From assembly GCF_024204645.1 (NCBI RefSeq), contig NZ_CP100351.1, positions 1,612,001 through 1,676,000 on the forward strand: DNA of 64,000 nucleotides, given 5' to 3'. The notes under the pieces are model-generated. The model was not told the DNA's origin. It did no database searches and saw only the letters and a program-made list of their open reading frames with translations. The position numbers and the translations under genes are program-made. Below are positions 36,675 to 61,944 of the stretch, in pieces. Origin of the DNA: Desulfomicrobium sp. ZS1 (GTDB taxonomy: Bacteria > Desulfobacterota > Desulfovibrionia > Desulfovibrionales > Desulfomicrobiaceae). Position 1 is the stretch's first letter; every line of letters begins with the position of its first letter.

Positions 36675-38123
36675 ATGGCCCAGAATATCAGTTGCGTCAG
36701 CGTCGACGACCCCAAACTCTCCACTCTCTTCAAGCCCTTTGCCCTGAAGATGGAGCAGCAAGGTCTGCCGCCCATCGTCATTAACACCTTCAAGTGTTAC
36801 TTTAACCAATTCCTGTACGGAGCCCAGGGCAAGCTTTCCGACCGCGACGTCATGGCCGTGCATGACGACCAACTGGCAGATTATGATGCCATGGAACAAT
36901 TCAAGGACAAGGGCGAAAAGGCGCTCGGAAAAACCGCAGTCATAAAGCTCAATGGCGGGCTTGGCACCAGCATGGGCCTGGAGTCGGCCAAGTCGCTTAT
37001 TCCGGTCAAGGAGGGGCTCAGCTTTCTGGACCTCATCCTGCTGCAGGCCACGACGGTCCGTACCCACTACGGGGTGGATTTTCCGCAAGTCTTCATGAAC
37101 AGCTTCAAGACGCACATGGACACCATGCTCAAAGTCGGGGACTTTCATAACGGCACGACCGGCATCGACCTCGCTTTTCTGCAGCATCGCTACCCCAAGA
37201 TCATGGCCAAAGACCACAGCCCCGCATCCTGGCCCCAGAATCCGGAGCTGGAATGGAATCCTCCGGGGCACGGAGACATCTACACCGCCATGATCACGTC
37301 AGGCATCCTCGATGCCTTGCTGGACAAAGGCTACCTGTACGCTTTCATTTCCAACTCCGACAATCTCGGGGCCATCATGAACCGCCGCCTGCTCGGCTAC
37401 ATGGTCCACCACAATCTGCCTTTTTTGATGGAAGTCGCCCGTCGCACGGAACAGGATAAAAAAGGCGGACACCTCTGCCGCCTGAGAAAGAACAAGCAAC
37501 TCGCCCTGCGCGAGGTGGCCCAGTGTCCCGACAACGAGATGGAATCGTTCTGTGACATCGAAAAATACAAATTCTTCAACACCAATTCCATCTGGATAGA
37601 CTTGCGCATCCTGCAGTCTGTTTTCATCTCGCACCGCATGATGCCGCTTGACCTGATCATAAACCCCAAAAGACTGGATCCTCGCGATCAGTCCTCGCCA
37701 AAGGTTTTTCAACTGGAAACGGCAATGGGTTCGGCCATCACCAATTTCCTTAATGCCCAGGCCGTCATCGTGCCCAGAAAACGCTTTGCCCCAGTCAAAA
37801 CGACAAATGACCTGCTCCTTGTCATGTCCGACTGCTTCGTACGCACGGAGCGCGAGACCATCATCCCCAACCCGGATCGCAGTGCCCCCATGCCGTCCGT
37901 CTCTTTGGACGAAAACTACTTCAAGAAAATAGACGCGTTCCTGGCTCGTTTCCCCAAAAACCCGCCATCCCTGCTCAAATGCGACAGCCTCGTGATTGAA
38001 GGAGACGTACGCTTCGAGGAAGACGTGCGTTGCGTGGGCGATGTACGCCTCGTCAACAGAGGCCCGAAGCAGGAAGTGATCAAAGCCGGCTCCGTGCTGC
38101 AGGGAGAGACCGTCTTTGCGTGA
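36675..38123 (+). CDS. UTP-glucose-1-phosphate uridylyltransferase, UDPGP (eukaryote-like) family
   Basis: Makes UDP-glucose from UTP and glucose 1-phosphate. At 482 residues, with KLNGGLGTSMGLESAKSLIPV, FMNSFKTHMDT, EWNPPGHGDIYTAM, FISNSDNLGAIM and a C-terminal beta-helix part, it belongs to the UDPGP family typical of eukaryotes and some deltaproteobacteria, not the usual GalU family. AAGGAG precedes ATG 36675. Its stop overlaps the start of the GGDEF gene. It probably supplies sugar nucleotide for polysaccharide or glycogen. Confidence 0.94.
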   Translation: MAQNISCVSVDDPKLSTLFKPFALKMEQQGLPPIVINTFKCYFNQFLYGAQGKLSDRDVMAVHDDQLADYDAMEQFKDKGEKALGKTAVIKLNGGLGTSMGLESAKSLIPVKEGLSFLDLILLQATTVRTHYGVDFPQVFMNSFKTHMDTMLKVGDFHNGTTGIDLAFLQHRYPKIMAKDHSPASWPQNPELEWNPPGHGDIYTAMITSGILDALLDKGYLYAFISNSDNLGAIMNRRLLGYMVHHNLPFLMEVARRTEQDKKGGHLCRLRKNKQLALREVAQCPDNEMESFCDIEKYKFFNTNSIWIDLRILQSVFISHRMMPLDLIINPKRLDPRDQSSPKVFQLETAMGSAITNFLNAQAVIVPRKRFAPVKTTNDLLLVMSDCFVRTERETIIPNPDRSAPMPSVSLDENYFKKIDAFLARFPKNPPSLLKCDSLVIEGDVRFEEDVRCVGDVRLVNRGPKQEVIKAGSVLQGETVFA

Positions 38124-40671
38124 CGCGGGCAGATCCTGCTCGCGCCTTCGCCCGGAGAGACGGTTGCCGTCGCTCCGGGCCGTGCTCCTGCTGCTGATCC
38201 TGGCCCTGTGCCCGACAAGCGCCCTTGCGGCCAAACAGGTTTTCATCCTCAACTCCTACCACCCGGACTACAAATGGTCCTCCGACATCATGCACGGTCT
38301 GGAGGCAACCCTGCATCAGTATGATCCGGAAGTGCTCATTCACGTCGAGCACATGGACACCAAGCGCAACCTCGATCCCGCCTATCTTGCCGGCCTTCCC
38401 AGATTCATGGAACTCAAATACGCTTTCCTGCGCCCCGATCTGGTCATCACGGTGGACGAAAGCGCCTTCTTTTTCTTTCTTGAACACGGAGCACGCATCT
38501 TTCCGGACACGCCGGTCGTATTTTGCGGGGTTAACACCAATCCTCTGCCGCCGCTGCCCAAAAATATGACCGGCGTGCGCGAGTACTCGGACCTGAACAC
38601 GAACGTGAAACTCATGCGCAGGCTGCAGCCGCAAATGCGCGAACTCCTGGTCATTGCGGACAAGACGGCAACGGGCGTTGCCGCCGTGGCCGAGTTGCGC
38701 AAGGCCGTCCCGCCGGACCTGCCTTTGCAGGTTCTTGATGACGCGCCCCTGCCGGATCTGGTGGAGAAGGTCAAAGGGATCAGCCCGCAGACGGGACTTC
38801 TTTTTCTGCTCTATTTCCAGGACCGCGATGGGCAGGTCTATGACGCGACGGAAGCCATTTCGGCCATTTCCGGGGCCAGTCCCGTGCCGGTTTACGGAAT
38901 CTGGAATTTTCTCATGGGACATGGGCTTTTCGGCGGATATCTGACCAACGCATTCGAACAGGGCCGGGTGGCAGGCGACATGGCCGGGCAGATCCTGTCC
39001 GGAAAAAATCCCGCCGACGTGCCCGTCACCTATGACGACGGGATTCAGCTTGAAGTGGACATGCAGCAAATGGAACGATTCGGAATCACGCCGGACCGGC
39101 TGCCCCCGGATACCAGATTCTTCAATGCCAAATCAGATACGGAGCATGAAATTCTGCATCTGCATTCCTACCACACGGGATTCAAGTGGACTGACGACCT
39201 TCAGGCCGGAATCAGGGAAAGCCTGGACGCGGACGCCACAAAACTCGAAATGCATGTCGAATACATGGACACCAAACGGCATCCCGAGCCTGAATTCACC
39301 TACTTCAACTACACCGTGCTGCGCGAAAAATATCTTTCCACCAATTTCTCCGTCGTGCTGACCACTGACGACAACGCCTTCAACTTTGCGCGCCAGTACC
39401 GGCAGACCTTGTTCAACAACGCGCCCATCGTCTTTTGCGGCGTGAACTATCTTGCGGACCCCGCGTCCCTTTCCGCGCAGGGCATTACGGGCGTGCTCGA
39501 ATCCTACGACATCGTCGCTACGGTGCAGGCCGCAGCCAGGCTCCTGCCCAAGGCCGCGAAGCTCTATGTCATCAACGACGCCACGCCGACCGGCATCGGC
39601 AACCACAACCGCTTTGAAGAAGTGCGCCACCTCCTGCCGGACCGGCTCGACATCGAACTGCTCGAGAACATGTCCATGACCCGTCTGCTGGAACGGCTGC
39701 CCTCGCTGCCACCGGACAGCTTCATCCTGCTCATGAGCTTCAACCAGGATCGAGACGGAAACACCTATTCCTACGAAGAGAGCTGTAGAAAAATCGTGAA
39801 CGTCAGCCCCGTGCCGGTCTTTTCTTTCTGGGACTTCTACCTGGGCTCGGGATCCGTAGGCGGAATGGTCACAAGCGGCCGTCACCAGGGATTGGCGGCG
39901 GGAAATCTGGCCCGGAACATCCTCGGCGGGCAAAAGGCCGAAGACCTGCCCATCATTACCAAAGGTCCCAATGCGTTCATTTTTGACGCCGATGCCATGA
40001 AAAAACATGGTCTGGACTTCAGTCTGCTCCCCAAGGGGGCCGCTCTCATCAATGATGACTCGGACTCATCCCGCTACACGCGCGCCGTGTGGACAATCAC
40101 GGTCCTGATGCTGATCATCGCCATGCTGCTTTTCATCTTTGTCTTCGTTTACCGGTACCAGCACCGCAAACGCCGGGCTCTGGAACATTCCGTGCGCATA
40201 GATCCCCTGACCGGAGCGAGCACCAGAAGCGCCTTTGATTCGGAAATGCCGCACCGGCTCAAAATCGCTACGGAGAAAAATGAAAAATTCATGTTCTGCT
40301 ACGTGGATGTGGACAAGCTCAAGCAGGTCAATGACACGTTCGGACATATCCATGGCGACACCTATTTGAAGGAAGTCGTCTCCATCATTCGCGCCTGCAT
40401 CCGCGCCAGCGATGAAGTCTATCGTGTCGGCGGAGATGAGTTCGTGCTGATCTTTCCCGGATGCGGCCCGGAGGAGCTTCAGCGGATCTGGGGGCAGGTG
40501 CACGCCCATATCGACGCCCTCAACAACTCCGGCAAGATCCCTTACACCATGGGACTCACGCACGGATGCACGGTCTTCAATCCGCAAGAACCGCAGGATA
40601 TCGCATCCCTGCTCAAAAAAGCCGACCAATCCATGTACCGGCGAAAGCAGCCCCACTCGTCCCAGCCCTGA
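38116..40671 (+). CDS. diguanylate cyclase with duplicated periplasmic binding-protein sensor
   Basis: Makes c-di-GMP in response to a periplasmic ligand. It starts at TTG 38116 with a GGGAGAG site, overlapping the previous stop by 8 bases, and has a signal/anchor (LRAVLLLLILALCPTSALAA). Two copies of an ABC_sub_bind-type domain follow: copy 1 begins VFILNSYHPDYKWSSDIMHG and copy 2 about residue 350 begins ILHLHSYHTGFKWTDDLQAG; both contain MDTKR. A membrane helix (about 655-680) leads to a GGDEF domain with RVGGDEFVLIFPG and an upstream RASD inhibitory I site. Length is 851 residues. Catalysis and feedback inhibition both look intact. The ligand is unknown. Confidence 0.9.
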   Translation: MRDAGRSCSRLRPERRLPSLRAVLLLLILALCPTSALAAKQVFILNSYHPDYKWSSDIMHGLEATLHQYDPEVLIHVEHMDTKRNLDPAYLAGLPRFMELKYAFLRPDLVITVDESAFFFFLEHGARIFPDTPVVFCGVNTNPLPPLPKNMTGVREYSDLNTNVKLMRRLQPQMRELLVIADKTATGVAAVAELRKAVPPDLPLQVLDDAPLPDLVEKVKGISPQTGLLFLLYFQDRDGQVYDATEAISAISGASPVPVYGIWNFLMGHGLFGGYLTNAFEQGRVAGDMAGQILSGKNPADVPVTYDDGIQLEVDMQQMERFGITPDRLPPDTRFFNAKSDTEHEILHLHSYHTGFKWTDDLQAGIRESLDADATKLEMHVEYMDTKRHPEPEFTYFNYTVLREKYLSTNFSVVLTTDDNAFNFARQYRQTLFNNAPIVFCGVNYLADPASLSAQGITGVLESYDIVATVQAAARLLPKAAKLYVINDATPTGIGNHNRFEEVRHLLPDRLDIELLENMSMTRLLERLPSLPPDSFILLMSFNQDRDGNTYSYEESCRKIVNVSPVPVFSFWDFYLGSGSVGGMVTSGRHQGLAAGNLARNILGGQKAEDLPIITKGPNAFIFDADAMKKHGLDFSLLPKGAALINDDSDSSRYTRAVWTITVLMLIIAMLLFIFVFVYRYQHRKRRALEHSVRIDPLTGASTRSAFDSEMPHRLKIATEKNEKFMFCYVDVDKLKQVNDTFGHIHGDTYLKEVVSIIRACIRASDEVYRVGGDEFVLIFPGCGPEELQRIWGQVHAHIDALNNSGKIPYTMGLTHGCTVFNPQEPQDIASLLKKADQSMYRRKQPHSSQP

Positions 40672-40888: not shown

Positions 40889-42613
40889 ATGAGCATACGT
40901 TTGGGAATTCGCAACAGGCTGCTTTTATTAGTCGGCGTGATGCTTGTCTTCATCGGCGCGGTGGTCGCTTTTTTTGTCTATCAAGCTGAAAACACAAAAA
41001 CGCAGATGATCGACCGCGTGGGACAGATCATGACAGAGGACGCGCAGGACAAAATCAGTATCCTGACGCAGTCCATGGCGACCGGCATCGCCGCGGCCAC
41101 CACGTCTGTGACGTCACACGAGGAGCGCATCGGCATCATCAAGACGTTGATCAACGACATTCGCTACGAGACCGACAAATCGGGTTATTTTTTCGTCTTC
41201 AAAGACACGGTATATCAGGTCATGCCACCCAATGCCGCCCGAGAAGGGATCGATGCCGGCGAAAGCAAGGATGCCAACAATGTCTTTTTCGTGCGGGAGC
41301 TGATGAACCGCGCCAAAGACGGAGGCGGCTTCGTGCACTATGTATTTGACAAGCCCGGCAAGGGCGTTCAGCCCAAGGTCAGCTATTCCACCATGATCCC
41401 CGGCACGGACCTGTGGATCGGCACCGGCGTCTATATCGACAACATCGCCGAGGCCCAGGCAAAAGTCGCAGCGGATCTGGAAAACGCGGCCGAGAGGTCC
41501 CTGACCATCGCCATGTCCTTTATCGGCGCGGGCTTCGCCTTTCTGGTTCTGCCCTTGGCCATCTTCCTCATCCGCTCCATCATCACCCCGCTGCAACGCA
41601 TGATCGGGATGCTCAAAGACATTGCCCAGGGCGAAGGCGACCTCACCGCCCGCCTGAAAGACACCTCCGGCACCGAGACCCAGGAACTGGCCGAATGGTT
41701 CAACAAATTCGTGGAACAGGTGCACGGCATCATCCGCGAGGTGGCGGGCAATTCCGCGCAGGTCAACCAGGCCTCGACCGGACTGCTGAACCTGGCCACC
41801 AATCTGCGCGGGGCCTCCAGCGACATGACCGCCAAGTCCACCAACGTGGCCGCGGCCACGGAGGAGATGAGTTCCAACATGAACTCCGTGGCCTCGGCTA
41901 TGGAAGAATTCTCCATTAATATCGGCACAGTGGCCACAGCATCCGAAGAAATGACCGCCACCATCGCCGAGATATCCCAGAACGCCAGCAAGGCCAAAGA
42001 CATCACCGGGCACGCCGTGGGCAAGGCCACGGAGGCCTCGCGCCGGGTGGACGAACTGGGCCACGCTGCGCGGGAAATCGACAAGGTCACCGAGACCATC
42101 ACCGCCATCTCCTCCCAGACCAACCTGCTGGCTTTGAACGCCACCATCGAGGCCGCCAGGGCCGGCGAGGCCGGACGCGGCTTTGCCGTTGTCGCCAACG
42201 AGATCAAGGAATTGGCCATGCAGACCGCCCGCGCCACCGAAGAAATCCGGGGCAAAATCCAGGGCATCCAGGGCGCGACCGGGATCACGGTGTCGGAAAT
42301 TCAGCAGGTCAGTCAGGTCATCAATGAAGTGGACATAATCGTCGGGACCATTGCCGCCGCTGTCGAGGAGCAGTCCGTCACGACCCGCGACATAGCGGAC
42401 AGCGTTGGCCAGGCTTCGCAAGGCGTACAGGAAGTGAATGAAAATGTGTCCCAGGCCGAATCCGTGACCCGCGACATCGCCAAGGAAGTAGCTTCCGTAA
42501 ACGCCGCCTCCGGCGATATCGCGCATTCGGCCGAAGCGGTTCAGACCAGCTCCGAAAGTTTGAGCGCCCTGGCCCGCGACCTGAACACCATGGTCGGCAA
42601 ATTCAGAATCTGA
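40889..42613 (+). CDS. methyl-accepting chemotaxis protein with single Cache sensor (copy A)
   Basis: A 574-residue membrane chemoreceptor. It has membrane helix 1 (residues 9-31), a single-Cache (sCache_2) periplasmic domain ([58 protein letters not shown]), membrane helix 2 (about 205-227), HAMP, and the signalling domain with [20 protein letters not shown]. The ribosome site is CCGGAGG. It is paired with a paralogue of exactly the same length 220 bases downstream. Sensor domains differ but everything after membrane helix 2 is almost identical. The Cache type often binds small organic acids; the ligand here is unknown. Confidence 0.93.
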
Positions 42614-42833: not shown

Positions 42834-44558
42834 ATGGCTATTCGATTCGGAATCCGCAATCGTTTACTCTTTTTGGTCGGCATCATGCTTGTTTTCATGG
42901 GCGCGGTAGTGGCCTTTTTCGTCTACCAGGCCAGTGGAACCAAGGAGCAGATGATCGACAAGGTCGGACAGATCATGAACGCCGACGCGCGTGACAAGAT
43001 CATGGTCGCCACCTCGAACATGGCGGCAAGCCTCGGTTCGGCCGTGAATGGAATGACAAGTGATACGGAACGAATCCCCCTTATCAGCAAACTCATCAAC
43101 GACATCCGTTTCGAGGAGGACAAGTCCGGCTACTTCTTTGTCTATCAGGAGACGACATGCCAGGTTCTGCCGACCAAGAAAGAGGTCGAGGGCAAGGATC
43201 TCGGGGGGAACAAAGACGTGAACGGGCTCTTGTATGTGCAGGAATTGCGCAAGCAGGCCCATGCTGGAGGAGGGTTCGTCGAATACGTCTTCGACAAGCC
43301 CGGCAAAGGCGACCAGCCCAAAATCGCCTACTCGATGATGATCCCCGGCACGGACATGTGGATCGGCACCGGCGTCTACATCGACAATATCGCCGAAGCC
43401 CAGGCCGCGGTGGCATCCGATCTCACGAGCGCGGCCGCCAAGTCCCTGACCATAGCCATGTCCTTTATCGGCGCTGGTTTCGCCTTTCTGGTCCTGCCCC
43501 TGACCATCTTCCTGATCCGCTCCATCATCACTCCGCTGCAGCGCATGATCGGGATGCTTAAAGACATTGCCCAGGGCGAAGGCGACCTCACTGCCCGCCT
43601 CAAGGACACCTCCGGCACCGAGACCCAGGAACTGGCCGAATGGTTCAACAAATTCGTGGAACAGGTGCACGGCATCATCCGCGAGGTGGCGGGCAATTCC
43701 GCGCAGGTCAACCAGGCCTCGACCGGACTGCTGAACCTGGCCACCAATCTGCGCGGGGCCTCCAGCGACATGACCGCCAAGTCCACCAACGTGGCCGCGG
43801 CCACGGAGGAGATGAGTTCCAACATGAACTCCGTGGCCTCGGCCATGGAAGAATTCTCCATCAATATCGGGACAGTGGCCACAGCATCCGAAGAAATGAC
43901 CGCCACCATCGCCGAGATATCCCAGAACGCCAGCAAGGCCAAAGACATCACCGGGCACGCCGTCGGCAAGGCCACGGAGGCCTCGCGCCGGGTGGACGAA
44001 CTGGGCCACGCCGCGCGGGAAATCGACAAGGTCACCGAGACCATCACCGCCATCTCCTCCCAGACCAACCTGCTGGCCTTGAACGCCACCATCGAGGCAG
44101 CCAGGGCCGGCGAGGCCGGACGCGGATTTGCCGTTGTCGCCAACGAGATCAAGGAACTGGCCATGCAGACCGCCCGCGCCACCGAGGAAATCCGGGGCAA
44201 AATCCAGGGCATCCAGGGCGCAACCGGGGTCACTGTGTCGGAAATTCAGCAGGTCAGCCAGGTCATCAATGAAGTGGATTCCATCGTCGGGACCATTGCC
44301 GCCGCTGTTGAGGAGCAGTCCGTCACGACCCGCGACATAGCCGACAACGTCGGCCAGGCATCGCTGGGCGTGCAGGAAGTCAACGAGAATGTGTCCCAGG
44401 CCGAAACCGTAACCCGCGACATTGCCAAGGAAGTGGCCTCCGTGAACGCCGCCTCCGGCGATATCGCGCACTCGGCCGAAGCGGTCCAGGCCAGCTCCGA
44501 AAACCTGAGCGGACTGGCCCGCGACCTCAATGCCATGGTCGGCAAGTTTAAAATCTGA
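42834..44558 (+). CDS. methyl-accepting chemotaxis protein with single Cache sensor (copy B)
   Basis: A 574-residue paralogue of the chemoreceptor at 40889, with the same colinear domains and no length change. The Cache domain ([39 protein letters not shown]) is diverged while HAMP and the signalling domain are almost identical, with about 239 bases identical in a row (43605-43843 here). The start ATG 42834 follows TTGGAGGA. It has its own terminator, so the pair are separate transcription units. The arrangement suggests tandem duplication followed by sensor divergence, with the signalling half kept uniform by gene conversion or selection. Confidence 0.93.
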
Positions 44559-45881: not shown

Positions 45882-48800
45882 TCAGATCACGAGTGGCGGG
45901 AGCAGCGCGTCCCTTGACAACAGGGCCTCGAAGTCCTGCGCGGGAACCGGTCTGCTGGCAAGATATCCCTGCAGCACGATGGGGCCCATGGAAGCCAGCA
46001 AGCCGCGCTGCGCCTGTGTTTCCACCCCCTCTGCGACGATCCGCAGATTGAGGGTCCGGGCCATGGACACGATGGCCGCGACAATGGCCCGGCTGTCTGA
46101 ATCATCGGTGATATCCTTTATGAAGGAGCGATCGATTTTGAGACCGTCGATGGGCAGGCGCTTCAGATAGGAAAGGGAGGAATAACCTGTTCCGAAGTCG
46201 TCGAGGAAAAAGGTTCCTCCTGCTTCACGCAGATTAAGCAACGTCGTCTCGGCCTTGCTCACATCGCCCATGAGCATGGATTCGGTGATCTCGAAATACA
46301 ATCTTCCCGGACGCAACTCCGTATCCAGAAGGACCTCGCGCAGCGTCACGGCCAGATCCGCTCCGGAAAACTGACGAGAGGAGATGTTCACCGACATGGT
46401 CAGATCATGCCCGGCATCCTGCCAGAGTTTGGCCTGATGCGCAGCCGTCCGCAAAACCCAGTCGCCCAGGGGCAGGATGAGCGCCGACTCCTCGGCCAGG
46501 GGAATGAACTCCGCCGGGGAAATGAGCTTGCCGTCGCAGCGCCAACGGATCAGGGCCTCGGCTCCGAGAATGTGTCCGCTCTGAATATGCACCAGCGGCT
46601 GGTAAAAGAGTTCGAACTCCTGCGCCTCGATGGCCTTGCGCAGCTTGTACTCCATGGAAATGCGCCGATGCGCGGCCACATCCATTTCCGGGGTGAAATA
46701 CTGGTAATTGTTGCGCCCCATGCTTTTGGCCCGGTACATGGCCATATCCGCGTTCTTGATCAGTTTCGGCGCCTCGTTACCATCATCGGGGGCGATGGTC
46801 AGGCCAATGCTGGCCGTGACGAAATATTCGACATCCCCATGATGAAACGGCGCTTTCAGGGCATCAAGCATCCGGGTCGCGATATGGCTGGCGGCGTCGA
46901 CCGATTCGATCTCGGGCAGTAGAATCAGAAACTCATCTCCGCCCAAGCGGGCCAGGGTGTCCCCGCTACGCAAGAGCCTCTCCAGGCGACGGGAAAGATC
47001 CACCAGCAACTCATCGCCGACGCCGTGCCCCAAGCCGTCGTTGATGGTCTTGAAGTTATCCAGATCGAAAAAAAGAAGCGCAAGCTTGCCCCCGCTGCGC
47101 GCTAGCTGCGCCAGCGCCATGCGCAGCCGGTCGCCCAGCAGGATGCGGTTGGGCATGCCGGTCAGGGCGTCGTGCTGCGCCTGGTATTCCAGCGCGTCCT
47201 GCTGGCGCTTGAGCTCGGTTATGTCGTGAAAAATGGAGACGTAGTTGGTGGTCTGCCCCGCCTCGTTCTTGACCGCGCTTATGGTCAGCCACTCGGGATA
47301 GGATTCGCCGTCCTTGCGGCGGTTCCAGATTTCTCCGGCCCAGTGCCCATCCTGCGTCAGCTTGGTCCACATCTCTTGATAGAAATGCTGGGGATGTCGG
47401 TCGGATTTGAGAATGCGCGGATTGCTGCCGACGGCTTCATCGGCGGAGTACCCTGTGATAACCGTGAACCCGGGGTTTAGCTGCTCGATTGTTCCTTCAG
47501 TGTTCGTGACCACAATGCCTTCGACTGTGTTCTCAAAGACCTTGGCGGCCAGCAGCAGTTTCTCCTCGGCCTTTTTGGCCACAGTGATGTCGCGGACCAC
47601 CGCCAGATAGGATTCAGGATGTTCGCCCTGGTCCCACAGGGGGGAGATGGTCGCCAACCCCCAAAAAACGCCGCCGCCTTTGCGCACATAGCGTTTTTCC
47701 AGCGTGATTTCCTTCTGCTCTTTTGTGACAAGGCTTTTCATGGCTTCCTCGGAGGCTTGCCAATCATCCGGATGCACGAGATCGCGGGGAGAAAGCGTGC
47801 CGAGTTCCGCAGCGGAATATCCCATCAGGTCGGAAAATTTCCGGTTCACCTTGATAAAACGTCGCGTATCGCCCTCAAACTGCGCAACGCCTACGCTTGC
47901 CATCTCGAAAAAAGCCCTGAAACTGCGCTCACTGGCAGACAGAGCCGCGGTACGCTCCTGGACCTGTCTGCTGAGTCGCGTATTGAAAAAGAAAAGCATG
48001 GCCGTGATCCCGGTTCCGACAAACAGGAAAACGCCCAGCGCAATCAACGTCGTGCGGATGGCTTGCTCCTTGCCTGCATGCAGACGCTGCTTGAATTCGG
48101 GATACAGAAATTCGGACAGGTCATAATCCGGGCCCATCATCCCCAGCTTGACATAAAGCCCGGCTATATGCCGCCAGCGCTCGGGATTCATATGACCGAT
48201 CTCGACAAAATCCGGGCGGATCAGCCGGCGCATGGTCTGGGCTTCAAAGAGAAGATGCTGCAAAGAAAGCTGCGTGGAATATTGGTCGCGAATGAGCGTG
48301 GCAATCTCTTCGGGATTTTCCATGGCATAGCGCCAGCCGCGCTGCACCGCACGCAGAAAGGCCTCGACCCGCTCCGGATGCCCTGAGACCTGATCCTGGG
48401 TCGTGACCAGGCAATCGCCGTAGAAATCCACTCCGTAATTGATGGGCCTGATGAACGAAACGGAAACACCGCGCTCCTGCATAAGATATGGTTCGCTGGT
48501 CAGATAGGCGCTCATGGCGTCAACCCGCCCGGACACGAGATCCTCGATATTCCAGGAATGCGGAACCTGGGTCATGCTCTCCAGGGAAATCCCCTCGCTG
48601 ACGAGCATGGCCATGTTTTCCGGATCAGTTGCGGAGGTCATCATGACACGTTTTCCGCTTAGGTCGTGCGGAGAATCGAGACGTGACTCCTTGAGCGTCA
48701 TCATGACGCTCGGCGAATGCTGAAAAATGGCGGCCAGAGCGACCAGAGGTTTGCCTTGCTGGCGTTTGATGAGAATCGCCGGGGAATCCACTGCGAACTC

Positions 48801-49109
48801 GGCTTCTTTGGACAGCAGTTTGGCTGTCGGATCAATACCTGGCGAACCCTCCAACAGTTCGACCTGCAGCCCTTCGTCCTTGAAATACCCCTTGGCCACG
48901 GCCGCGTAGTACCCGGCAAACTGGAACTGATGTCGCCATTTAAGCTGCAGGCGGATTTTTTGAACAGAATTTGGAGCGGCAAAAATGCTGCCGGATGGCA
49001 CAAGAAAAACACCGACCAAAACCAATACGACAATAAGCTTCGTAAATCCGAAAAAAGGCTTCACTACGGCCCGGAATAGAAGGGAGTCGAGACAAGAACG
49101 TGTACTCAT
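45882..49109 (-). CDS. NMT1/THI5-type sensor, PAS-PAS-GGDEF-EAL protein
   Basis: A 1075-residue c-di-GMP signalling protein. After a signal/anchor helix (residues 22-44) comes an NMT1/SsuA-like periplasmic binding domain (about 50-360, KIRLQLKWRHQFQFAGYYAAV), a membrane helix (about 378-398), two PAS domains (about 415-535 and 545-665), a GGDEF domain with RLGGDEFLILLPE and an upstream RSGD I site, and a C-terminal EAL domain with GAEALIRW, NISSRQF, EITESML, DDFGTGYSSL, KIDRSFI and EGVET. Both catalytic sites look complete, so it could make or degrade c-di-GMP. THI5-like sensors bind pyrimidine- or sulfonate-type ligands in other proteins; the ligand here is unknown. Confidence 0.92.
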   Translation of the reverse strand: MSTRSCLDSLLFRAVVKPFFGFTKLIVVLVLVGVFLVPSGSIFAAPNSVQKIRLQLKWRHQFQFAGYYAAVAKGYFKDEGLQVELLEGSPGIDPTAKLLSKEAEFAVDSPAILIKRQQGKPLVALAAIFQHSPSVMMTLKESRLDSPHDLSGKRVMMTSATDPENMAMLVSEGISLESMTQVPHSWNIEDLVSGRVDAMSAYLTSEPYLMQERGVSVSFIRPINYGVDFYGDCLVTTQDQVSGHPERVEAFLRAVQRGWRYAMENPEEIATLIRDQYSTQLSLQHLLFEAQTMRRLIRPDFVEIGHMNPERWRHIAGLYVKLGMMGPDYDLSEFLYPEFKQRLHAGKEQAIRTTLIALGVFLFVGTGITAMLFFFNTRLSRQVQERTAALSASERSFRAFFEMASVGVAQFEGDTRRFIKVNRKFSDLMGYSAAELGTLSPRDLVHPDDWQASEEAMKSLVTKEQKEITLEKRYVRKGGGVFWGLATISPLWDQGEHPESYLAVVRDITVAKKAEEKLLLAAKVFENTVEGIVVTNTEGTIEQLNPGFTVITGYSADEAVGSNPRILKSDRHPQHFYQEMWTKLTQDGHWAGEIWNRRKDGESYPEWLTISAVKNEAGQTTNYVSIFHDITELKRQQDALEYQAQHDALTGMPNRILLGDRLRMALAQLARSGGKLALLFFDLDNFKTINDGLGHGVGDELLVDLSRRLERLLRSGDTLARLGGDEFLILLPEIESVDAASHIATRMLDALKAPFHHGDVEYFVTASIGLTIAPDDGNEAPKLIKNADMAMYRAKSMGRNNYQYFTPEMDVAAHRRISMEYKLRKAIEAQEFELFYQPLVHIQSGHILGAEALIRWRCDGKLISPAEFIPLAEESALILPLGDWVLRTAAHQAKLWQDAGHDLTMSVNISSRQFSGADLAVTLREVLLDTELRPGRLYFEITESMLMGDVSKAETTLLNLREAGGTFFLDDFGTGYSSLSYLKRLPIDGLKIDRSFIKDITDDSDSRAIVAAIVSMARTLNLRIVAEGVETQAQRGLLASMGPIVLQGYLASRPVPAQDFEALLSRDALLPPLVI

Positions 49110-53600: not shown

Positions 53601-54995
53601 TCAATCAAGGGGAAAAACATTCATTCCTTTCTTCATCACGATGCGTTTGGCGCCGGCCAATGCTGTGGCCTGGTAGTCCCGGGCCGTTGCGGTGTCCACG
53701 GAGCGCCACGCCTGCCAGACAACGACGAAGGTGTTTTCAAATTTTCCCAGATACTGAATGCCTTCGACGGGTTGCCCCTGCCGTGCGGAAACCTTGCGGA
53801 TCGAATGGTCCGACGACTCTTCGATAGTCTGGATATCCTCAAAGCCCGACTGCTTTGCGGCCATCTTGACGAAATCCCGAAACGAAACGCCCGGAGCATA
53901 GACGGCGGACACGGTCAGTATGGCCTTCCAATCGTCCAGGGTCTGGCCTGTCGGCAGATACTCGTAACTGATCTTACCGTTCGTTTGGGTTTGCCGCCCC
54001 AGAACGTCGAATTTGGTCTCCGGCGTCTGTGCCCAGAAGGGGATGGGATAGGTCAGGTGCACCTCATGCATGAGGACAGAGTCGGTCAGGGACATCCGCT
54101 GCACAGTCGACTTCGACAGGGGCGGGGTGGTGTCCAAAACGGCAGGTTTCACGGCCGGAGGACGGTTTCCTTTGGGGGTGTAGTTGAAGACCATGCCGCG
54201 TTTTTCCAGGAAATCAACACAGCGCCAGAACCACATATAATGCGGGACAGTATTGTCGCGAGCCAGATTATGACGGCCCAAATCTATATTTATACTTTCG
54301 CGAATATCTTTTATTCCTCCGCCAGTGTAATTGGACGAATAGTCAACTCCTTGTTCGAGGAGGTATAAAGTGATTTCAAAATTATCGTAAGACGCCGCGT
54401 AAAAAACTAACGGCCGTCCACTTTCGTCTTTATAATCTATTTCAGCTCCTGCTTTGACAAGTATCATAAATGCGTCTTCATTTCCAAATCGGAGCGCCTT
54501 TTGGATAGGACGATATCTTTTGTCTGGCGGGAGCAAATTCGGATCCCCTCTGCCAATTTCCAAGCACATACGCAAATAATCAGTACCTATGTAAGGGGCA
54601 TCTTCTACCGCCCTATGGAGTAAAGAGATTTGCTCTTTAGTTCCAGCATATTGAATGAACCATATCTTGTTCGGATCAGCGCCATGCTCGAGGAGTCGAC
54701 GGAAGCCTGCCTTGCTGGGATGGTGAAAGAGCCACTCAGTAATAGCCACGCCATAGGTTCCTACGGCATTCACATCTGCACCTGCGGCCACCAACCGATC
54801 AATCTCCCCTATATCCCCCCGCCCGGCGGCCAAGGCCAGGGCCTGCGCTTGGGGTTTGCCCGGAAACATTTCCGCCACGCTCATGTACATGAGCCCCTTC
54901 GGCTGGGAGGATTTCGAACTTTGCCCCATCCCCGCACATCCGGCCAGGGACAACAATGCCACGCCGAGTGTTATCCATAATTTGACAAACGCCAT
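53601..54995 (-). CDS. ankyrin-repeat lipoprotein, candidate immunity protein
   Basis: A 464-residue lipoprotein (lipobox LSLAGCAG) with ankyrin-type repeats over about residues 40-240 (ALALAAGRGDIGEIDRLVAAGADVN, FMILVKAGAEIDYKDESGRP, LYLLEQGVD), and then a C-terminal domain of about 150 residues shared with the next gene. Ankyrin or Sel1-type lipoproteins of this layout neutralise lipase effectors in other secretion systems. It begins 26 bases after the stop of the exoprotein gene whose C-terminus is lipase-like, with GGAGG before ATG 54995. The position +2 after the lipid cysteine is Ala, favouring the outer membrane and a periplasmic orientation. Immunity function is inference from layout and position. 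Confidence 0.8.
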   Translation of the reverse strand: MAFVKLWITLGVALLSLAGCAGMGQSSKSSQPKGLMYMSVAEMFPGKPQAQALALAAGRGDIGEIDRLVAAGADVNAVGTYGVAITEWLFHHPSKAGFRRLLEHGADPNKIWFIQYAGTKEQISLLHRAVEDAPYIGTDYLRMCLEIGRGDPNLLPPDKRYRPIQKALRFGNEDAFMILVKAGAEIDYKDESGRPLVFYAASYDNFEITLYLLEQGVDYSSNYTGGGIKDIRESINIDLGRHNLARDNTVPHYMWFWRCVDFLEKRGMVFNYTPKGNRPPAVKPAVLDTTPPLSKSTVQRMSLTDSVLMHEVHLTYPIPFWAQTPETKFDVLGRQTQTNGKISYEYLPTGQTLDDWKAILTVSAVYAPGVSFRDFVKMAAKQSGFEDIQTIEESSDHSIRKVSARQGQPVEGIQYLGKFENTFVVVWQAWRSVDTATARDYQATALAGAKRIVMKKGMNVFPLD

Positions 54996-55020
54996 TCTGC
55001 CTCCAAATGTTCTGCTGGCT

Positions 55021-58000
55021 TTAATTGGGTCCAAAGACCTTGACCATCGCTTCTATGCCATGCAATCCGCCTGCTTCCACGACAACCCGTGTCCCCAAAG
55101 CCGAGGGCATCTTAGGAATAATATCCTGCAAATTGTTGAGGATGTCCGCACGGCTGGCATACGCGGTGGTCACCGCTCTGGCGTTTTCGATTCTGCCGCC
55201 GATGGCGGCGATGGTTTTCTCGTGAACGCCAGCCGTATTGAACACTACGGCTCGATCGATAAGTCCTGTTGAAGCAACTGCTGTGGCCAATCCGCCCCCA
55301 AGAGAATGTCCCGTTGCAGCCAATGTGCCTCCGGTAGAATCAGCCAAGTTTGACAACTTTTCCAGAATGTTCAAATCGCCAGCCTGCTTATACTGATTTC
55401 CAACCAAGCCAAAAGCCTGGGCAAAATTTGTACTCCAGTCTTTCGTTTCATCAGTTCCTGTGAATACAATCACGTATTCATTCAAGTCCTCGTTATGATA
55501 TACTTTTGCGCTGTATCCAGATTGTTTATCACGCATTTGTTCCGGATTTATATCCTCTTTGAGCAATTTCTCATCGCTTAACAGCTTATAACCATCAGTT
55601 TCCATACAATTGTCGTAATTACACTTTGCGAGCCTCACCATCGGCCCATCTCTCTTCTTCTGCTCCTCGCTCAAAGCCGGAGCCAAATAGGTATTGGCCA
55701 GTTCTGCGACAATTGCGCTCATGGCCCCCTGCACCGGGTCTTGCCCCAAAACTGCGGCGCTTGCTGCTCCAGCAGCGCCGGCAATGACGATGTTCACGGC
55801 GTCGTCCAGTTCTTCCGCGCTGATCTCACTTTTGGCGTAGCTGGCAAAACTGGACGCCAAGGAGGTGAGGAAAGCCTTTTCCAGATCCTCTCCACCCACA
55901 AGATTGCTGGTGACGGTCTTTACCGCAGTGTTCGCCATGATTTCCCCTGCCGGACCATACGAGGCGAAGGTACTGGCGGTGGTGCTCAAGACTCCGGCAG
56001 AGACCATGGTTGTAAGCAGGGAGCGTGCGCTGTCTTCCGAGACCATGCCTTCCAGATTTTTTCCAAGATCACCTCCGGCAGCGGCATCGGCCACACTGAC
56101 GGCCAGGCGCGAACCGATGGAAGTGATCCCCGCTGTCAAAGCCGACACCATGGCCAACTGGACGGATGTTGCCGCAACTTGAGTGCCTGCGACGACCACA
56201 GCCCCGGTGAGGGTCGAAACCTCCAGACCCATGACGCTCAGGGCAAGGCTGGATGCGGCGCCGGCAGTAACCGCAGCGGCAGCGATGGCGATGACAAGGG
56301 TCGCGGCCGGGGCGAGTCCGCTGTCGGTTTTGTTCCATTTGGTGAAATTTTCCTGGACGGCCTGCCAGTTGATGTCCTCACGTTCGAGCAGAGGCCCCAT
56401 CCATTCCAGGCCGGGGTTTTGGGCGAGTTGTTCGACGTCGCGGCGCACATCGCCGGTCTGCCTGTATTCGACCACAACTCCGTTACCGGCCCTGATACTC
56501 AATCCCTGGTCTGTCTGAATGATCGTGGGAACGACGATTTCTACCGACGTGCCCTTGTCCGTTGATTTCCAAGTCAACAGGCCGGTTTTCTGCGTCACCT
56601 TCTGGTCGTAGCTGGTGTCCTTGCCGGTCAGCAGCGCCACCTGCCCCTCGGTGGCGGTGATACTGACGGATTCGCCGGATTTGATGGTCGCGGCCTGGAT
56701 GGCGACATTGTCCCTCGCCTCGAGAACAATCTTACCGTCAGCGGCGATTTCGCTCCCGACTGTCGAGGTCCTCTGTTGATCGGCCATTTCCATGGAAGGC
56801 GTCAGGCTCGCAAATCCGGAATCCTGTGACTCATAGTGACTGTAGCTCTGATCGCGGTCCGCAGTGATCAGCAGATCGCCGGCAGACTTGAGTTCAACAT
56901 CGCCATCGGATTTGAGCTTGCTGCTGTGTATGAGAACATCACCGTCACCCGATGTTCCGGATTCAATGCGCATGTCATCGCCCGAGCTCAATTCGCTTCT
57001 GACCGCCGATACTTCCTGCCGCTGACTGGAACTGCTTTCCTTGCTCAAGAAACCCGACTTGCTGGACTTTGAACTGTGGGAAGCACTCTCCTGTGACATG
57101 ACGACAAGCATGTCCCCTGCGGCTTTGAGATTCATCTCTTCGCCCGAACGCACCTGGCTGCCCCCAACCGCCAGATCCCCGGCCCCACCTTTGCCAGCCA
57201 CCACATTCACATCGCCACTCGCCGTGATGACTGAAGCCACATTGGTCGAGACCTTACCCGCATGCATCTCCGAGCTTGAACCACCGAAGAAACCGCCTTT
57301 GCTTTTCTGTTTGAAGTAATAGTCGTAGCCATCGGTGGCGGCGGTGATGGAGACGTCACGACCAGCTTCGAGGTCCACGTCCGCTCCGGCCGATACGTGG
57401 CTGCCGTGAACGGCGACATCCTGACCCGCGCTGATGTTCACCGAACCACCCGCCTCGATGGTGGATGCCTTGCTGGTCCGGGAATTGAAGCTGCTTTTGG
57501 ATTTCCCGGTCTGGCCGGAACTGTGCGACTCCAGCTGCTGAGCCGTGATAACCACGTTGCGGCCGGCAGAGAGTGTCGCGTCGCCGCCTGCCTTCACGTC
57601 GCTGCCGACAATCCCGATGTCGCGCCCGGCCTTCATGGCCAAGTCGCCCGTGGCCTCGATGGCCCCCCTTTGTCCGACCGTCTCGCTTGAGGTCCGGGTG
57701 GTCGACGTGACGCCAAAACCAAGAGCCCCGTCCTGTCCGACGACACCAAACCCTTCACGGCCAAACGTCCTGCGAGTCGTTTCCTCGGCCGAAAAGGTGG
57801 TCTTGGCCGTGCCGGAAATGATGTCCTGGCCGGCGTCGAGCGACACGTCGCGGCCCTTGATCAACCCGCTGGTGTTGAATATCGAATCGACCGCAGCCAG
57901 AGTCACCGTGTCGCCCTGGATGGTCCCAAAGGTGTTGAAGACATTCTTGGCATTGATAGCCAGGTCGCTCGAGGCCTTGATCACGCCACTGTTGGCCGTG

Positions 58001-61000
58001 TTTCCCGAGGTATGGATTTCCACATCCCGGCCGACGATGACGGACCCGCCCCGGGCTATGGTGTCGAGGCTGCTACGGCAGAGATAAACGACAGGCACCA
58101 GAACCTCGTGCCCGTCCACCACGCGGGTTTCCAGCCAGACGATGTCCGAACTCAGGGCCGCGACCTGTTCAGCGCTCAAGGCCACGCCCACGCTCAAATC
58201 CAAGTCTTCACGGGCGGCGACGGCATTGTCCATGAGGGCCAGCATCTGCTCTGAGTCGCCGGATACGGAGTTCGAAAGAAAGCTTCGCCCCGTGAGGGCT
58301 AAAATCTGCTCACGCACCAACCGGGTTTCATAAAAGGCGTCACCCAAAAGCTGTTGCCGGGTCTTGCTCAGATCGATGCCCGTTCGGCTCAGAAAATAGT
58401 CGGACCCATAGAACAGGGCCATGCTGGTCAGAGCGGGATTGGTTTCGATGAGGTAACGGTGACCAGGAGCTTTGTTGACGCTGAATAGTCCGTCTTTGGG
58501 CAGTTCGCCGATGATGTCGCCGATATCGTCGATATTGTGGACCAAGTCTTCGGGTCTGGGCGGAGCGATGACCCCGCCTTGGGGCCCGATGCTGCCTGGA
58601 TAGGAAACTTTACCAGTGTTACTACTGGCCACGCCCGTGCTCTCTAATATTCCGTTATTGACGTGCTCTGCGCTGATGAACACATTGCCGCCAGCGCTGA
58701 TGGTGCCGTATGCATGTTCGATGGAAGTGCTGACAACCTCCACTCCGCCACCTTCTTTAGCGAGACGAGGGCTATTGTGCTCATTGGCATGCCCCCGAGC
58801 CCACTCGATAGTCCGATGTTCATAGATATCCTGCCCTGCATTTTCAAAAGAGTCGGCAATGATGGATATATCTCCGGAAGCAGTGCTGATCCTGCTGACA
58901 TGATTGCTGAAAGAATCAGCCTCGATGTCCAAATTTAGGGCTGCCGCGATATTTGATCCGCGTTCCTGGCCAGTAGCCTCGTCCCTGGTTATGGACTCAA
59001 TATAGGCGGCAACCTTTGATCTGTCCTTATAGTGCTGGACAACCATATGTATGCCCCTGCTGACCACTCGACTTTTCAGACTGGAGACGGTCGCGATTTC
59101 TCCGGAACTACCGCCGTAAAGCGCAAATTGCGCCTCGGCGGCGACAATGGCCGCATCCAGTTCCGAACGCGGAATAACGTTGCGATCCAGACCGAATCCA
59201 AGAACACGCAGTTCCGCAGGGGTGATGATCAAAGCATTACGCTTGCTTGAAACCGCACTGGAACTCGGCAACATCTTGTAGAGATCCTGGGCCTGATCCC
59301 AGTTATCACCGAAAAAGGAATAAATCCCCCCCTTGCGGCTCACAACCTCCGTCCCAGGCGTCAACGTAAAATCCAGATTGGCGTTCCTCACCACCTTGGC
59401 CCGGATGGACATCCCGCCTTCCAAAGTCTCGATTGTCCCCGAATCGTTCTTCAGTTCAAGCATGCGGCTACCGGCTTCCAGACCTTCCAGCACCATGTCG
59501 CCCAAGGACAGGATCTGGCCCCTGAGATTGTGCAGCATGCCGCCCAGGCTGAACGTCGCCTTGCCGCCGGAAAAAAGAAAGTTTGTGTTGATCAAATCGC
59601 CCAACACTGAAAAAATACTGTCGCCCTGAGCCAGGATCTGACCGCTGTTGTCCAGTCTGCCGGAACGCAAGGAAAAGCTGTCGCCGGAATGCATGATTCC
59701 CGTATTCTCCAGAGCCTCCAACACATCAAATTCCAGGACTGTTTGCGACAGGATGTCTCCGTCCGTATTATAGATCCCGTCTCCCACGCTGAACGCACCC
59801 GCGCCAACGGACTCTATACGACCGGAGTTCCGCAGGTCCCCGGCCACATCGAACAACGCCCCTCCGGAAGCCAGCATCAGACCGTCAACGGTATTCTCAA
59901 GGCTTCCCTCAATGCTGAAGGCGACATTGGTGTCACCCGCTATCGTGCCGGAATTGAAGAGATCACCAGCCAGGAAGAGGCTCAGGTCGCCGGTGGACAG
60001 AATTTCGCCAGCATTGAAAAGATCGCCGCCCAGATCATAGGAACCGCCACCCGAATGCAGGATTCCCGTATTTTCCAAATCGTTGCTGATTTCAAAGACG
60101 GCGTCTCCAACGGTCAGGATTTCGCCTTCGTTGAAAAGCATGCCGGCTGATCGAAACAAAGCTGTTCCGCCTGATTGAATGGCACCTGAGTTCTTGATAT
60201 CGCCTTCAGCCACAAGCTCCATCCCGGTTTGGGCCAGGATGCTTGCGCCTTGGTTGAAGAGACTGCCGCCGCTGCGCACCCGGAGGGACTCCCCGGCATT
60301 CAGGACTCCCCAATTCTCCAGATCGCCGCCCAAATCCAGGGTCAGAGACCCAAGGGCCAGCACCTGACCGGCTGGTTCATTGCGCAGGTTTTCTGCCCCG
60401 ATCCGGCTGGACGCGCCGGAATAGAGCATTCCCGAATTGCTCAAACCGCCCGTCACCGCCACGTCCAGATCGCCTTGGGCAACGATGCTGCCACCATCAT
60501 TGCTCAAGCTGCCGGCGCTGATGCTTGCCTGCCCATCGGTTCGGATGGCTCCGGTATTGGAGATAATTGCCGTTGTCTGAATGTTTGTTGATTTTTCGGA
60601 CAACACCTCGCCCGTGTTGACGACATCACCTGCGGAATGAATCCTGACTGAACCGATGGACAGCACTCGCCCTGAATTCTCGACAGCTGCGCCATTGACG
60701 GACAAGCTGTCTTTGCCCTGCATCTGCCCGGAGTTACGCACGGTTCCAGCTCCGCTCAGAACCGCATCGCCACCGGAGAAGAGAACGCCTTCATTCGTGA
60801 CGTCAGCGCGCGTTGCCACAACCAAACTTTTCCCAGCTTCGACCCTTGCGTCTTTGTTGCGCAACGATTCGGACGCGATCCTCACATCCTCTCCATACAG
60901 CAGGGCCTTTTCACCTGTTCCGGATTGGAGCGACAAGGTTTGAGCCGCCGTCACGTCCGCCACTTTCGCTGCCGCCAGCAAACCGGAGATTTCAACACTG

Positions 61001-61923
61001 TCGCCGGTGGAAGCAACCCGCACGCCATTATCCGAAGAAAGGCTCCCCTTGATCCGAATCTTGCCGTCCGCAGTCAAAACAAGATCTTCAGTGGCGTGGG
61101 TAATCCCTTCAAGATTCACCCCCACGCCCTTTTCATTGCCCACAAGGATGATGCGCTCAGCGTACATGCCGCCAAGGGCCGTGGAATCCAGCGCCACAGC
61201 CGGGAATGCCGAACCGTCGGGGGGCAAATCGGAAAATTGGCCAGTGGCAACGTCATGGCTGCCGTATCCGGTGGTGATGCCCAGCTTCACGGCATGCACG
61301 TCGGCATTGATCTTGGCTGTACGGCTGATGATGTCGAAAGCGTCGAGATTGGAGACATTGAGACCCAGGCCGTCGACAAGCACATCCCCCTGACGCACAT
61401 CCAGGGCGCTTAAGTCCCCGAACTCGTCAAACCGGGGCTTGCCCGTAGTCAAAGTAGCCCAGGGAGTGTTGATGAATCCACCGCCATTGACCGTGATGCC
61501 GTTGGGATTGGCCAGGATGTAGTCGGCCGGATAGCCGAAAATTTCCGTGTAGCCTTCAAGGCGGGAGCGACTGCTGCCCGTGACCTCGTTCAGGATGACG
61601 CGGGCTTCCGGGCCCCTGCCGAGCTTCGGATTGTTGGTCACCACGCCGCCCAGCAGCGTTCGCCCGGCCTTCCTGCTGTTGTTCATGATCACGCCGGACT
61701 CGCCAACATTGAACTGATCGTACTTGTTGTGGGAGAGGCCTTTGGAGTTGGGCTTTGCGATATCGACCATGGGCACGCCGTTGGGCGTCGCGCTCAACCC
61801 CGGCTGATTGGCTGACGAGGCCTTGGAATCGACCACGATGCCTCCCGCAGTCGCCAGCATGGGATTGAAAATCAACAGAAAAGCCAACATCTGACAAATG
61901 ATTCGCTGAATCGCATGGTTCAT
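55021..61923 (-). CDS. CdiA/TpsA-type exoprotein with C-terminal lipase-like domain
   Basis: A 2300-residue secreted adhesin/toxin carrier. ATG 61923 follows GGGAGA; a signal peptide (QRIICQMLAFLLIFNPMLAT) leads to the TPS domain (about 28-270) with VTNNPKL, ILNEVTGSSRS and NPNGITVNGGGF. Filamentous-haemagglutinin repeats of the type SGGDLxNxGxIxS run about 380-840, an FHA-2-like region follows near 1150-1290, a second repeat region 1290-1780, and a hydrophobic DUF637-like segment about 1850-2080. No VENN motif is found. The last 200 residues (from KCNYDNC, about 2100) are class-3-lipase-like: VIVFTGTDETKDW, GHSLGGGLATA with the nucleophile at about Ser2207, then RADILNNL and GLHGIEAM as possible Asp and His. 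It follows its transporter gene by 21 bases. Confidence 0.88.
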   Translation of the reverse strand: MNHAIQRIICQMLAFLLIFNPMLATAGGIVVDSKASSANQPGLSATPNGVPMVDIAKPNSKGLSHNKYDQFNVGESGVIMNNSRKAGRTLLGGVVTNNPKLGRGPEARVILNEVTGSSRSRLEGYTEIFGYPADYILANPNGITVNGGGFINTPWATLTTGKPRFDEFGDLSALDVRQGDVLVDGLGLNVSNLDAFDIISRTAKINADVHAVKLGITTGYGSHDVATGQFSDLPPDGSAFPAVALDSTALGGMYAERIILVGNEKGVGVNLEGITHATEDLVLTADGKIRIKGSLSSDNGVRVASTGDSVEISGLLAAAKVADVTAAQTLSLQSGTGEKALLYGEDVRIASESLRNKDARVEAGKSLVVATRADVTNEGVLFSGGDAVLSGAGTVRNSGQMQGKDSLSVNGAAVENSGRVLSIGSVRIHSAGDVVNTGEVLSEKSTNIQTTAIISNTGAIRTDGQASISAGSLSNDGGSIVAQGDLDVAVTGGLSNSGMLYSGASSRIGAENLRNEPAGQVLALGSLTLDLGGDLENWGVLNAGESLRVRSGGSLFNQGASILAQTGMELVAEGDIKNSGAIQSGGTALFRSAGMLFNEGEILTVGDAVFEISNDLENTGILHSGGGSYDLGGDLFNAGEILSTGDLSLFLAGDLFNSGTIAGDTNVAFSIEGSLENTVDGLMLASGGALFDVAGDLRNSGRIESVGAGAFSVGDGIYNTDGDILSQTVLEFDVLEALENTGIMHSGDSFSLRSGRLDNSGQILAQGDSIFSVLGDLINTNFLFSGGKATFSLGGMLHNLRGQILSLGDMVLEGLEAGSRMLELKNDSGTIETLEGGMSIRAKVVRNANLDFTLTPGTEVVSRKGGIYSFFGDNWDQAQDLYKMLPSSSAVSSKRNALIITPAELRVLGFGLDRNVIPRSELDAAIVAAEAQFALYGGSSGEIATVSSLKSRVVSRGIHMVVQHYKDRSKVAAYIESITRDEATGQERGSNIAAALNLDIEADSFSNHVSRISTASGDISIIADSFENAGQDIYEHRTIEWARGHANEHNSPRLAKEGGGVEVVSTSIEHAYGTISAGGNVFISAEHVNNGILESTGVASSNTGKVSYPGSIGPQGGVIAPPRPEDLVHNIDDIGDIIGELPKDGLFSVNKAPGHRYLIETNPALTSMALFYGSDYFLSRTGIDLSKTRQQLLGDAFYETRLVREQILALTGRSFLSNSVSGDSEQMLALMDNAVAAREDLDLSVGVALSAEQVAALSSDIVWLETRVVDGHEVLVPVVYLCRSSLDTIARGGSVIVGRDVEIHTSGNTANSGVIKASSDLAINAKNVFNTFGTIQGDTVTLAAVDSIFNTSGLIKGRDVSLDAGQDIISGTAKTTFSAEETTRRTFGREGFGVVGQDGALGFGVTSTTRTSSETVGQRGAIEATGDLAMKAGRDIGIVGSDVKAGGDATLSAGRNVVITAQQLESHSSGQTGKSKSSFNSRTSKASTIEAGGSVNISAGQDVAVHGSHVSAGADVDLEAGRDVSITAATDGYDYYFKQKSKGGFFGGSSSEMHAGKVSTNVASVITASGDVNVVAGKGGAGDLAVGGSQVRSGEEMNLKAAGDMLVVMSQESASHSSKSSKSGFLSKESSSSQRQEVSAVRSELSSGDDMRIESGTSGDGDVLIHSSKLKSDGDVELKSAGDLLITADRDQSYSHYESQDSGFASLTPSMEMADQQRTSTVGSEIAADGKIVLEARDNVAIQAATIKSGESVSITATEGQVALLTGKDTSYDQKVTQKTGLLTWKSTDKGTSVEIVVPTIIQTDQGLSIRAGNGVVVEYRQTGDVRRDVEQLAQNPGLEWMGPLLEREDINWQAVQENFTKWNKTDSGLAPAATLVIAIAAAAVTAGAASSLALSVMGLEVSTLTGAVVVAGTQVAATSVQLAMVSALTAGITSIGSRLAVSVADAAAGGDLGKNLEGMVSEDSARSLLTTMVSAGVLSTTASTFASYGPAGEIMANTAVKTVTSNLVGGEDLEKAFLTSLASSFASYAKSEISAEELDDAVNIVIAGAAGAASAAVLGQDPVQGAMSAIVAELANTYLAPALSEEQKKRDGPMVRLAKCNYDNCMETDGYKLLSDEKLLKEDINPEQMRDKQSGYSAKVYHNEDLNEYVIVFTGTDETKDWSTNFAQAFGLVGNQYKQAGDLNILEKLSNLADSTGGTLAATGHSLGGGLATAVASTGLIDRAVVFNTAGVHEKTIAAIGGRIENARAVTTAYASRADILNNLQDIIPKMPSALGTRVVVEAGGLHGIEAMVKVFGPN

Positions 61924-61944
61924 GAAATCTCCCGCATTCAAACG

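Follow-up and report, generated by a model that had tools for sequence, protein, structure and literature searches.

Two stacked ABC_sub_bind-type clamshell sensors on a predicted diguanylate cyclase of Desulfomicrobium

Introduction

The clamshells of the Vibrio cholerae receptor CdgH have the type II amino-acid-binding fold, and those of the BvgS/EvgS kinases belong to a different clamshell family from the sensors described here. Our subject, comparable to both in plan, is an 851-residue protein of Desulfomicrobium sp. ZS1 in which two periplasmic ABC_sub_bind-type (PF04392) domains, A and B, precede one membrane helix and a GGDEF domain. Its gene lies in a window of 64,000 nucleotides (NZ_CP100351.1, positions 1,612,001 to 1,676,000), part of a 3.87-Mb single-contig genome; all coordinates below are those of the window. 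The gene product is probably a membrane-anchored receptor diguanylate cyclase whose two stacked type I periplasmic-binding-protein (PBP) sensors read two small solutes.

Passages of the 2017 paper on CdgH (PMC5431781) describe two tandem periplasmic clamshells that differ in sequence, a membrane connection and a GGDEF domain, as in the window protein; L-Arg/Lys/Orn bind to the first clamshell, the second favours L-Gln/L-His and holds them less tightly, and the dimeric periplasmic part compacts in the presence of L-Arg. There are differences: the CdgH domains are shorter (both fall within residues 46-491) and resemble the arginine-binding AncQR and HK29S, whereas those of the window protein are PF04392-type domains of ~305 amino acids (aa) that match CD0873 and 3lft. 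A Pfam search of the tandem protein gave no SBP_bac_3 match at E <= 1, and the top structural matches of its repeats are PF04392-type proteins. Because its sensor family differs (PF04392, not SBP_bac_3), the protein is not a CdgH-type member, though it is analogous in plan. The BvgS/EvgS kinases, according to sections of PMC4352136, likewise carry tandem periplasmic Venus flytrap (VFT) domains before a membrane helix, but their output is a PAS-histidine-kinase, while that of the window protein is GGDEF only.

In the CdgH passages BvgS is the only other solved tandem clamshell receptor, and a 2022 review states that SBP_bac_3 is the only member of the PBP clan to have been studied in cyclic di-GMP (c-di-GMP) networks (PMC8846402). 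In the openly licensed literature we found no paper joining ABC_sub_bind with GGDEF and none on Desulfomicrobium with a diguanylate cyclase; of those on PF04392, none is about receptors, judged by title.

Anatomy and predicted fold of the tandem protein

The coordinates, strand and frame of the open reading frame (ORF) were confirmed, and the product was divided as follows.

38116..40671, + strand: whole gene (signal peptide, sensor A, sensor B, membrane helix, GGDEF), 851 aa, TTG start
38116..38229, + strand: N-terminal signal peptide, aa 1-38, ending ALA (hydrophobic stretch; position conserved in orthologs; cleavage presumed)
38230..39150, + strand: sensor domain A, aa 39-345, ABC_sub_bind-type, complete bilobed type I PBP fold (Pfam, self-alignment, model; 6hnj match)
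38254..38286, + strand: signpost SYHPDYKWSSD of A, aa 47-57, in the loop after the first strand
38353..38367, + strand: signpost MDTKR of A, aa 80-84
39151..40071, + strand: sensor domain B, aa 346-652, ABC_sub_bind-type, complete bilobed type I PBP fold (Pfam, self-alignment, model; 6hni and 3lft matches)
39166..39198, + strand: signpost SYHTGFKWTDD of B, aa 351-361
39265..39279, + strand: signpost MDTKR of B, aa 384-388
40066..40191, + strand: one continuous helix, aa 651-692, with the membrane span at ~654-683 and then a short cytoplasmic signalling helix (hydrophobicity, model)
40198..40656, + strand: GGDEF (diguanylate cyclase) domain, aa 695-847 (PF00990 E 1.3e-33; SadC/GcbC structures, Z ~19)
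40402..40413, + strand: I site RASD, aa 763-766, five residues ahead of GGDEF
40429..40443, + strand: active-site GGDEF, aa 772-776

Pfam finds PF04392 in two stretches and one GGDEF domain, and outside the signal peptide there is a single hydrophobic stretch (~aa 654-683); together with the predicted fold, this upholds the order of two sensor domains, one membrane helix and GGDEF that an earlier note had read from the DNA. The PF04392 score is 65.5 bits against a cut-off of 25.9, which applies to the whole protein with its two matched stretches and not to each repeat singly. A and B align end to end and almost without gaps (32% identity, E 3e-58), with a local score of 449, whereas 500 shuffles averaged 34 and never exceeded 56.

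An AlphaFold model of the full protein, built from 10 sequences (mean predicted local distance difference test score, pLDDT, 81.3; predicted template modelling score, pTM, 0.45), contains two complete alpha/beta clamshells; modelled by itself, the tandem (613 aa) reached pLDDT 87.3 and pTM 0.53. Whole solved proteins match whole repeats (Z 23.9-24.9). Model residues 38-340 are matched by the open form of CD0873 (6hnj; 280 aligned, Z 24.9, root-mean-square deviation (rmsd) 3.1) and residues 343-647 by the closed form (6hni; 272 aligned, Z 24.9, rmsd 3.5); 3lft (L-Trp bound, Z 24.0) and 3lkv (Z 23.9) both fall on B, where the 6hni and 3lft matches together take in 342-647. These are, unlike the window protein, single-domain solute-binding proteins, at 12-14% identity in the structural alignment. 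Since each repeat alone corresponds to a complete bilobed type I PBP, we rejected the idea that A and B are the two halves of one double-lobed domain, which the earlier note had named as what would undo its proposal, and regard the arrangement as a true tandem. The earlier note's suggestion of an intramolecular dimer of A with B finds no support, the two models placing the domains relative to each other with low confidence.

PF00990 scores 116.5 bits (cut-off 23.8), and the Pfam scan of the tandem protein found no HAMP or PAS between the membrane helix and GGDEF. Both the GGDEF motif and RxxD are kept in 10/10 tandem proteins whose GGDEF domain is covered, the window's included, which agrees with the earlier remark that the I site is preserved. 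With profile match, motif and I site all present, the protein is a predicted diguanylate cyclase.

Conservation of the two sensors

In each domain SYHxxxKWxxD stands behind the first strand and MDTKR behind the second. Among 53 single-domain relatives the signpost residues are conserved throughout (S 100%, Y 96%, W 96%, D 94%, K 85%, R 77%). The earlier note had pointed to the signposts as common to the two halves of a duplicated sensor; they are indeed present in both, but being family-wide they mark membership of the family and are no sign of recent duplication.

Taking columns conserved in at least 70% of these 53 relatives (67 columns; rows L046, L057 and L054_s422 left out), the majority residue of seven orthologs agrees at 53/67 in A and 58/67 in B, so both domains may still bind ligand; in the ortholog of genome G019, from another genus of the family, the agreement is 58/67 for A and 56/67 for B. 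Many of the family-conserved positions sit in loops at strand ends. Neither domain looks decayed by this comparison, and A looks somewhat more changed within Desulfomicrobium.

These data bear on the idea that only one domain senses and the other is a spacer or dimerisation module, most likely an A that has lost binding and acts on the hinge of B. A departs from the consensus at 14 of the 67 positions and B at 9, and in the four more distant Desulfomicrobium orthologs A is less identical to the window protein than B (56-63% vs 66-72%); likewise, sections of the BvgS paper give differing roles to its clamshells, with VFT2 closed without ligand and VFT1 open (PMC4352136). Against this, A retains the near-invariant S47, Y48, W54, E78, D81, K83, D114, C137, G138, N140 and D182, and in orthologs of intermediate distance (G001, G002, G007, G013) it is conserved as well as B or slightly better (82-87% vs 79-83%). 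Identities in G019 are 35% for A vs 43% for B, and in G015 95% vs 96%. On balance we find a single working sensor rather unlikely.

Distribution of the tandem and its relatives

The survey of tandem frequency that the earlier note had proposed found the tandem-GGDEF form in 11/348 genomes of the order: 10/16 Desulfomicrobium genomes (one copy cut by a contig end) and G019, whose tandem is 39% identical to the window protein. The other matches listed in that search cover one repeat only, B. Among 395 genomes across the phylum, end-to-end matches occurred only in the window's own genome and in G389. Both surveys, and also the later search that found G146 and the directed GGDEF search described below, scored the best 3-4 candidates per genome under strict E limits, making counts of divergent tandems lower bounds; that such tandems are undercounted is seen from the stand-alone tandem of G146, missed in the 395-genome survey and found in a later search. 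Beyond the phylum, a search for related loci yielded a single-domain protein of Synergistaceae (L046). In the loci fetched, domain scans gave one domain per protein apart from the tandem-GGDEF proteins, G389 and G146; 13 of the 93 distinct ORFs are tandem. The tandem two-sensor diguanylate cyclase layout is thus rare and conserved.

Single-domain relatives are mostly kinases. Ten further sensor-bearing proteins of the window's own genome were scanned and comprise seven histidine kinases, one HD-domain protein and two with the sensor alone; the eight signalling proteins among them each have a single sensor domain. All ten scanned single-domain relatives of B in the order are histidine kinases (taken from 12 fetched loci, hand-picked from the match list with shorter frames favoured). 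These single-domain kinases, from Desulfovibrionales and relatives, share a homologous sensor (up to 43% identical to B) and differ from the window protein in having one sensor domain and a PAS/histidine-kinase output.

GGDEF was found in 0/80 distinct single-domain ORFs of the sample, many of them cut off by locus ends. A directed search with B plus GGDEF turned up proteins with a single sensor domain and GGDEF in two genomes, G026 (552 aa) and G574 (608 aa), and the notion that GGDEF occurs only with the tandem was dropped. These two have the sensor family and output of the window protein, with one sensor that groups with neither B nor A. Single-domain GGDEF relatives therefore exist but are rare. 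That single-domain relatives place the sensor before a histidine kinase, and rarely before GGDEF, identifies the domain as a receptor input.

Some arrangements stand apart: (i) In G389 (L095 2730-6962) a stand-alone tandem of 634 aa from its first ATG has two PF04392-type domains and no output domain, and its gene directly precedes one for a Cache-HAMP-PAS-histidine-kinase-receiver protein; perhaps it loads a separate receptor. (ii) G146 (L126/L159) has a stand-alone PF04392-type tandem related to that of G389. Both have two domains per polypeptide, as in the window protein, without its GGDEF or a kinase domain. (iii) At L054 in the window's own genome (G000:C1:2733500-2738500) a 467-aa PF04392-type ORF lies directly before a histidine kinase with the same sensor type, two sensors being split here across two neighbouring genes.

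Origin of the tandem

In all four trees displayed, A and B sort into two clades of their own, both including G019; the tandem thus either predates the split of these genera or was passed on whole. The earlier note called the sensor internally duplicated, which the trees do not bear out: A and B are sisters in 0/6. Approximately unbiased (AU) tests of A+B constrained as sisters were run on five data sets: (i) data set 1, with L001 dropped as a long branch, p 0.285; (ii) data set 2, with L001 and 12 near-copies dropped, p 0.242; (iii) data set 3, equal to data set 2 minus 11 rows (six long or outlying, five others) plus 11 new ones, p 0.022; (iv) data set 4, of 72 rows without G019, p 0.148; (v) data set 5, of 85 rows with the dropped rows restored, p 0.189. 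The constraint was rejected in one of the five, and that only p below 0.05 came after row removal, rising to 0.189 on restoration.

The evidence leans towards two different domains of the family having been stacked, short of proof, and an old internal duplication of one domain is possible on these trees. A fuller alternative holds that A and B arose by internal duplication and bind the same ligand, so that the response to one signal would be graded or of higher avidity. It can draw on the nearly gap-free end-to-end identity of A and B, and local duplication does occur in the family: the halves of the G389 tandem are sisters at 100/100 support and hence an independent duplication. Single-domain kinases are nevertheless closer to B than A is, and the trees separate A from B, if with just the one AU rejection; we consider this alternative unlikely.

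Other placements were tried. On data set 3 a single lineage of B and the single-domain GGDEF proteins was rejected (AU p 0.023), as was one that joins them to A (p 0.012), and we accordingly do not claim that the tandem originated by addition of A to such proteins. A position of A beside L052-type kinases appeared in the first tree (94/85) and with data set 1 (89/76); it was gone with data sets 2 and 3 and was given up.

Proposed mechanism

Building on the anatomy, predicted fold, motifs, conservation and gene order, a scheme can be proposed for ligand binding, dimerisation, activity and the direction of response. CdgH serves as the nearest working model. Each clamshell sensor would have its own cleft for a small solute. 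Closure of A, of B or of both would change the packing of B, seated on the membrane helix, within a receptor dimer; the membrane helix and the short helix behind it would relay the change, so that two GGDEF domains meet and c-di-GMP is made, with product inhibition at the RASD site expected from known diguanylate cyclases. A would be the membrane-distal, added input, and B would be membrane-proximal, in the place of the lone sensor of relatives. With an L-Trp-bound protein (3lft) and the solute-binding protein CD0873 of C. difficile as the solved relatives, the likely ligands are small nutrients, amino-acid-like or other. It is plausible that A and B bind different putative ligands, as the earlier note had supposed.

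Several observations weigh against a receptor with two working inputs. How A, B and the membrane helix lie relative to one another is uncertain in the models, as their pTM values show. With its 14 departures from 67 conserved positions, A could have lost binding. The solved PF04392 proteins are only weakly similar in sequence (for A, 3lkv at E 9e-7; for B, at best 6hni at E 0.66), which makes the ligand class a guess. Finally, the tandem gene was not found in 6/16 Desulfomicrobium genomes and is therefore dispensable.

That the sensors dock a separate ligand-loaded periplasmic protein, in the manner of NspS-MbaA, rather than a free solute is very improbable: stimulation of receptors by solute-binding proteins is known (PMC9602780) and NspS-MbaA is named in the abstract of PMC8967002, but A and B are themselves complete clamshells with conserved interlobe loops, and no solute-binding-protein gene lies directly beside the tandem gene, whose neighbours encode a uridylyltransferase and two methyl-accepting chemotaxis proteins (MCPs).

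Returning to the receptor with two inputs, we offer a more specific version only tentatively. Two different PF04392-type branches may have been stacked on one diguanylate cyclase in a Desulfomicrobiaceae ancestor, with a different solute for each, and the enzyme would then combine two nutrient signals (as AND, OR or ratio). Such a protein would be convergent with CdgH/BvgS and the first type I fold so used.

Gene neighbourhood

The gene upstream overlaps the tandem gene.

36675..38123, + strand: UTP-glucose-1-phosphate uridylyltransferase (PF01704), upstream gene, 8-base overlap

The start of the tandem gene is the TTG at 38116, six bases past GGGAGAGA and overlapping the final 8 bases of the uridylyltransferase gene. 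An in-frame TTG, likewise preceded by a similar run rich in purines, occurs at the same place in 10/10 Desulfomicrobium tandem orthologs; from this and the overlap, joint translation of the two genes is probable. Desulfomicrobium tandem loci have the uridylyltransferase gene immediately upstream in 10/10 cases, and an MCP gene is downstream in all nine whose contig reaches that far; the G019 tandem locus lacks this order. The uridylyltransferase gene is itself kept in 12/12 family genomes searched, of which six are Desulfomicrobium lacking the tandem and six, including G019, belong to other genera; in the 10 loci fetched from those 12, some on short contigs, no ORF with a PF04392-type sensor lies beside it. 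UDP-glucose is a precursor of many extracellular polysaccharides, whose synthesis is often controlled by c-di-GMP, so the pairing is no more than suggestive.

The two MCPs beside the tandem gene (40889-42613 and 42834-44558, both +) are adjacent 574-aa chemoreceptors. Their sensor parts (31-200) are 62% identical and their HAMP/signalling parts 97% in protein and 94% in DNA; the pair is a duplication whose Cache sensors diverge but whose signalling half seems to have been homogenised. Some 5 kb away from the tandem gene, 45882-49109 (-) encodes a receptor with an NMT1/THI5-like solute-binding sensor and PAS, GGDEF and EAL domains. Further on, 53601-63741 (-) holds a two-partner secretion (TPS) pair, a 2306-aa TPS/haemagglutinin-repeat protein and a ShlB/FhaC-type transporter, adjoined by an ankyrin-repeat protein at 53601-55034.

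Implications

A known plan, tandem clamshells with GGDEF, is built here from a different fold than that of CdgH, and the interest of the protein rests on its two proposed inputs. It would test whether two stacked clamshells of a different fold give the same two-input behaviour, with the single-domain relatives that have GGDEF or kinase outputs as natural controls.

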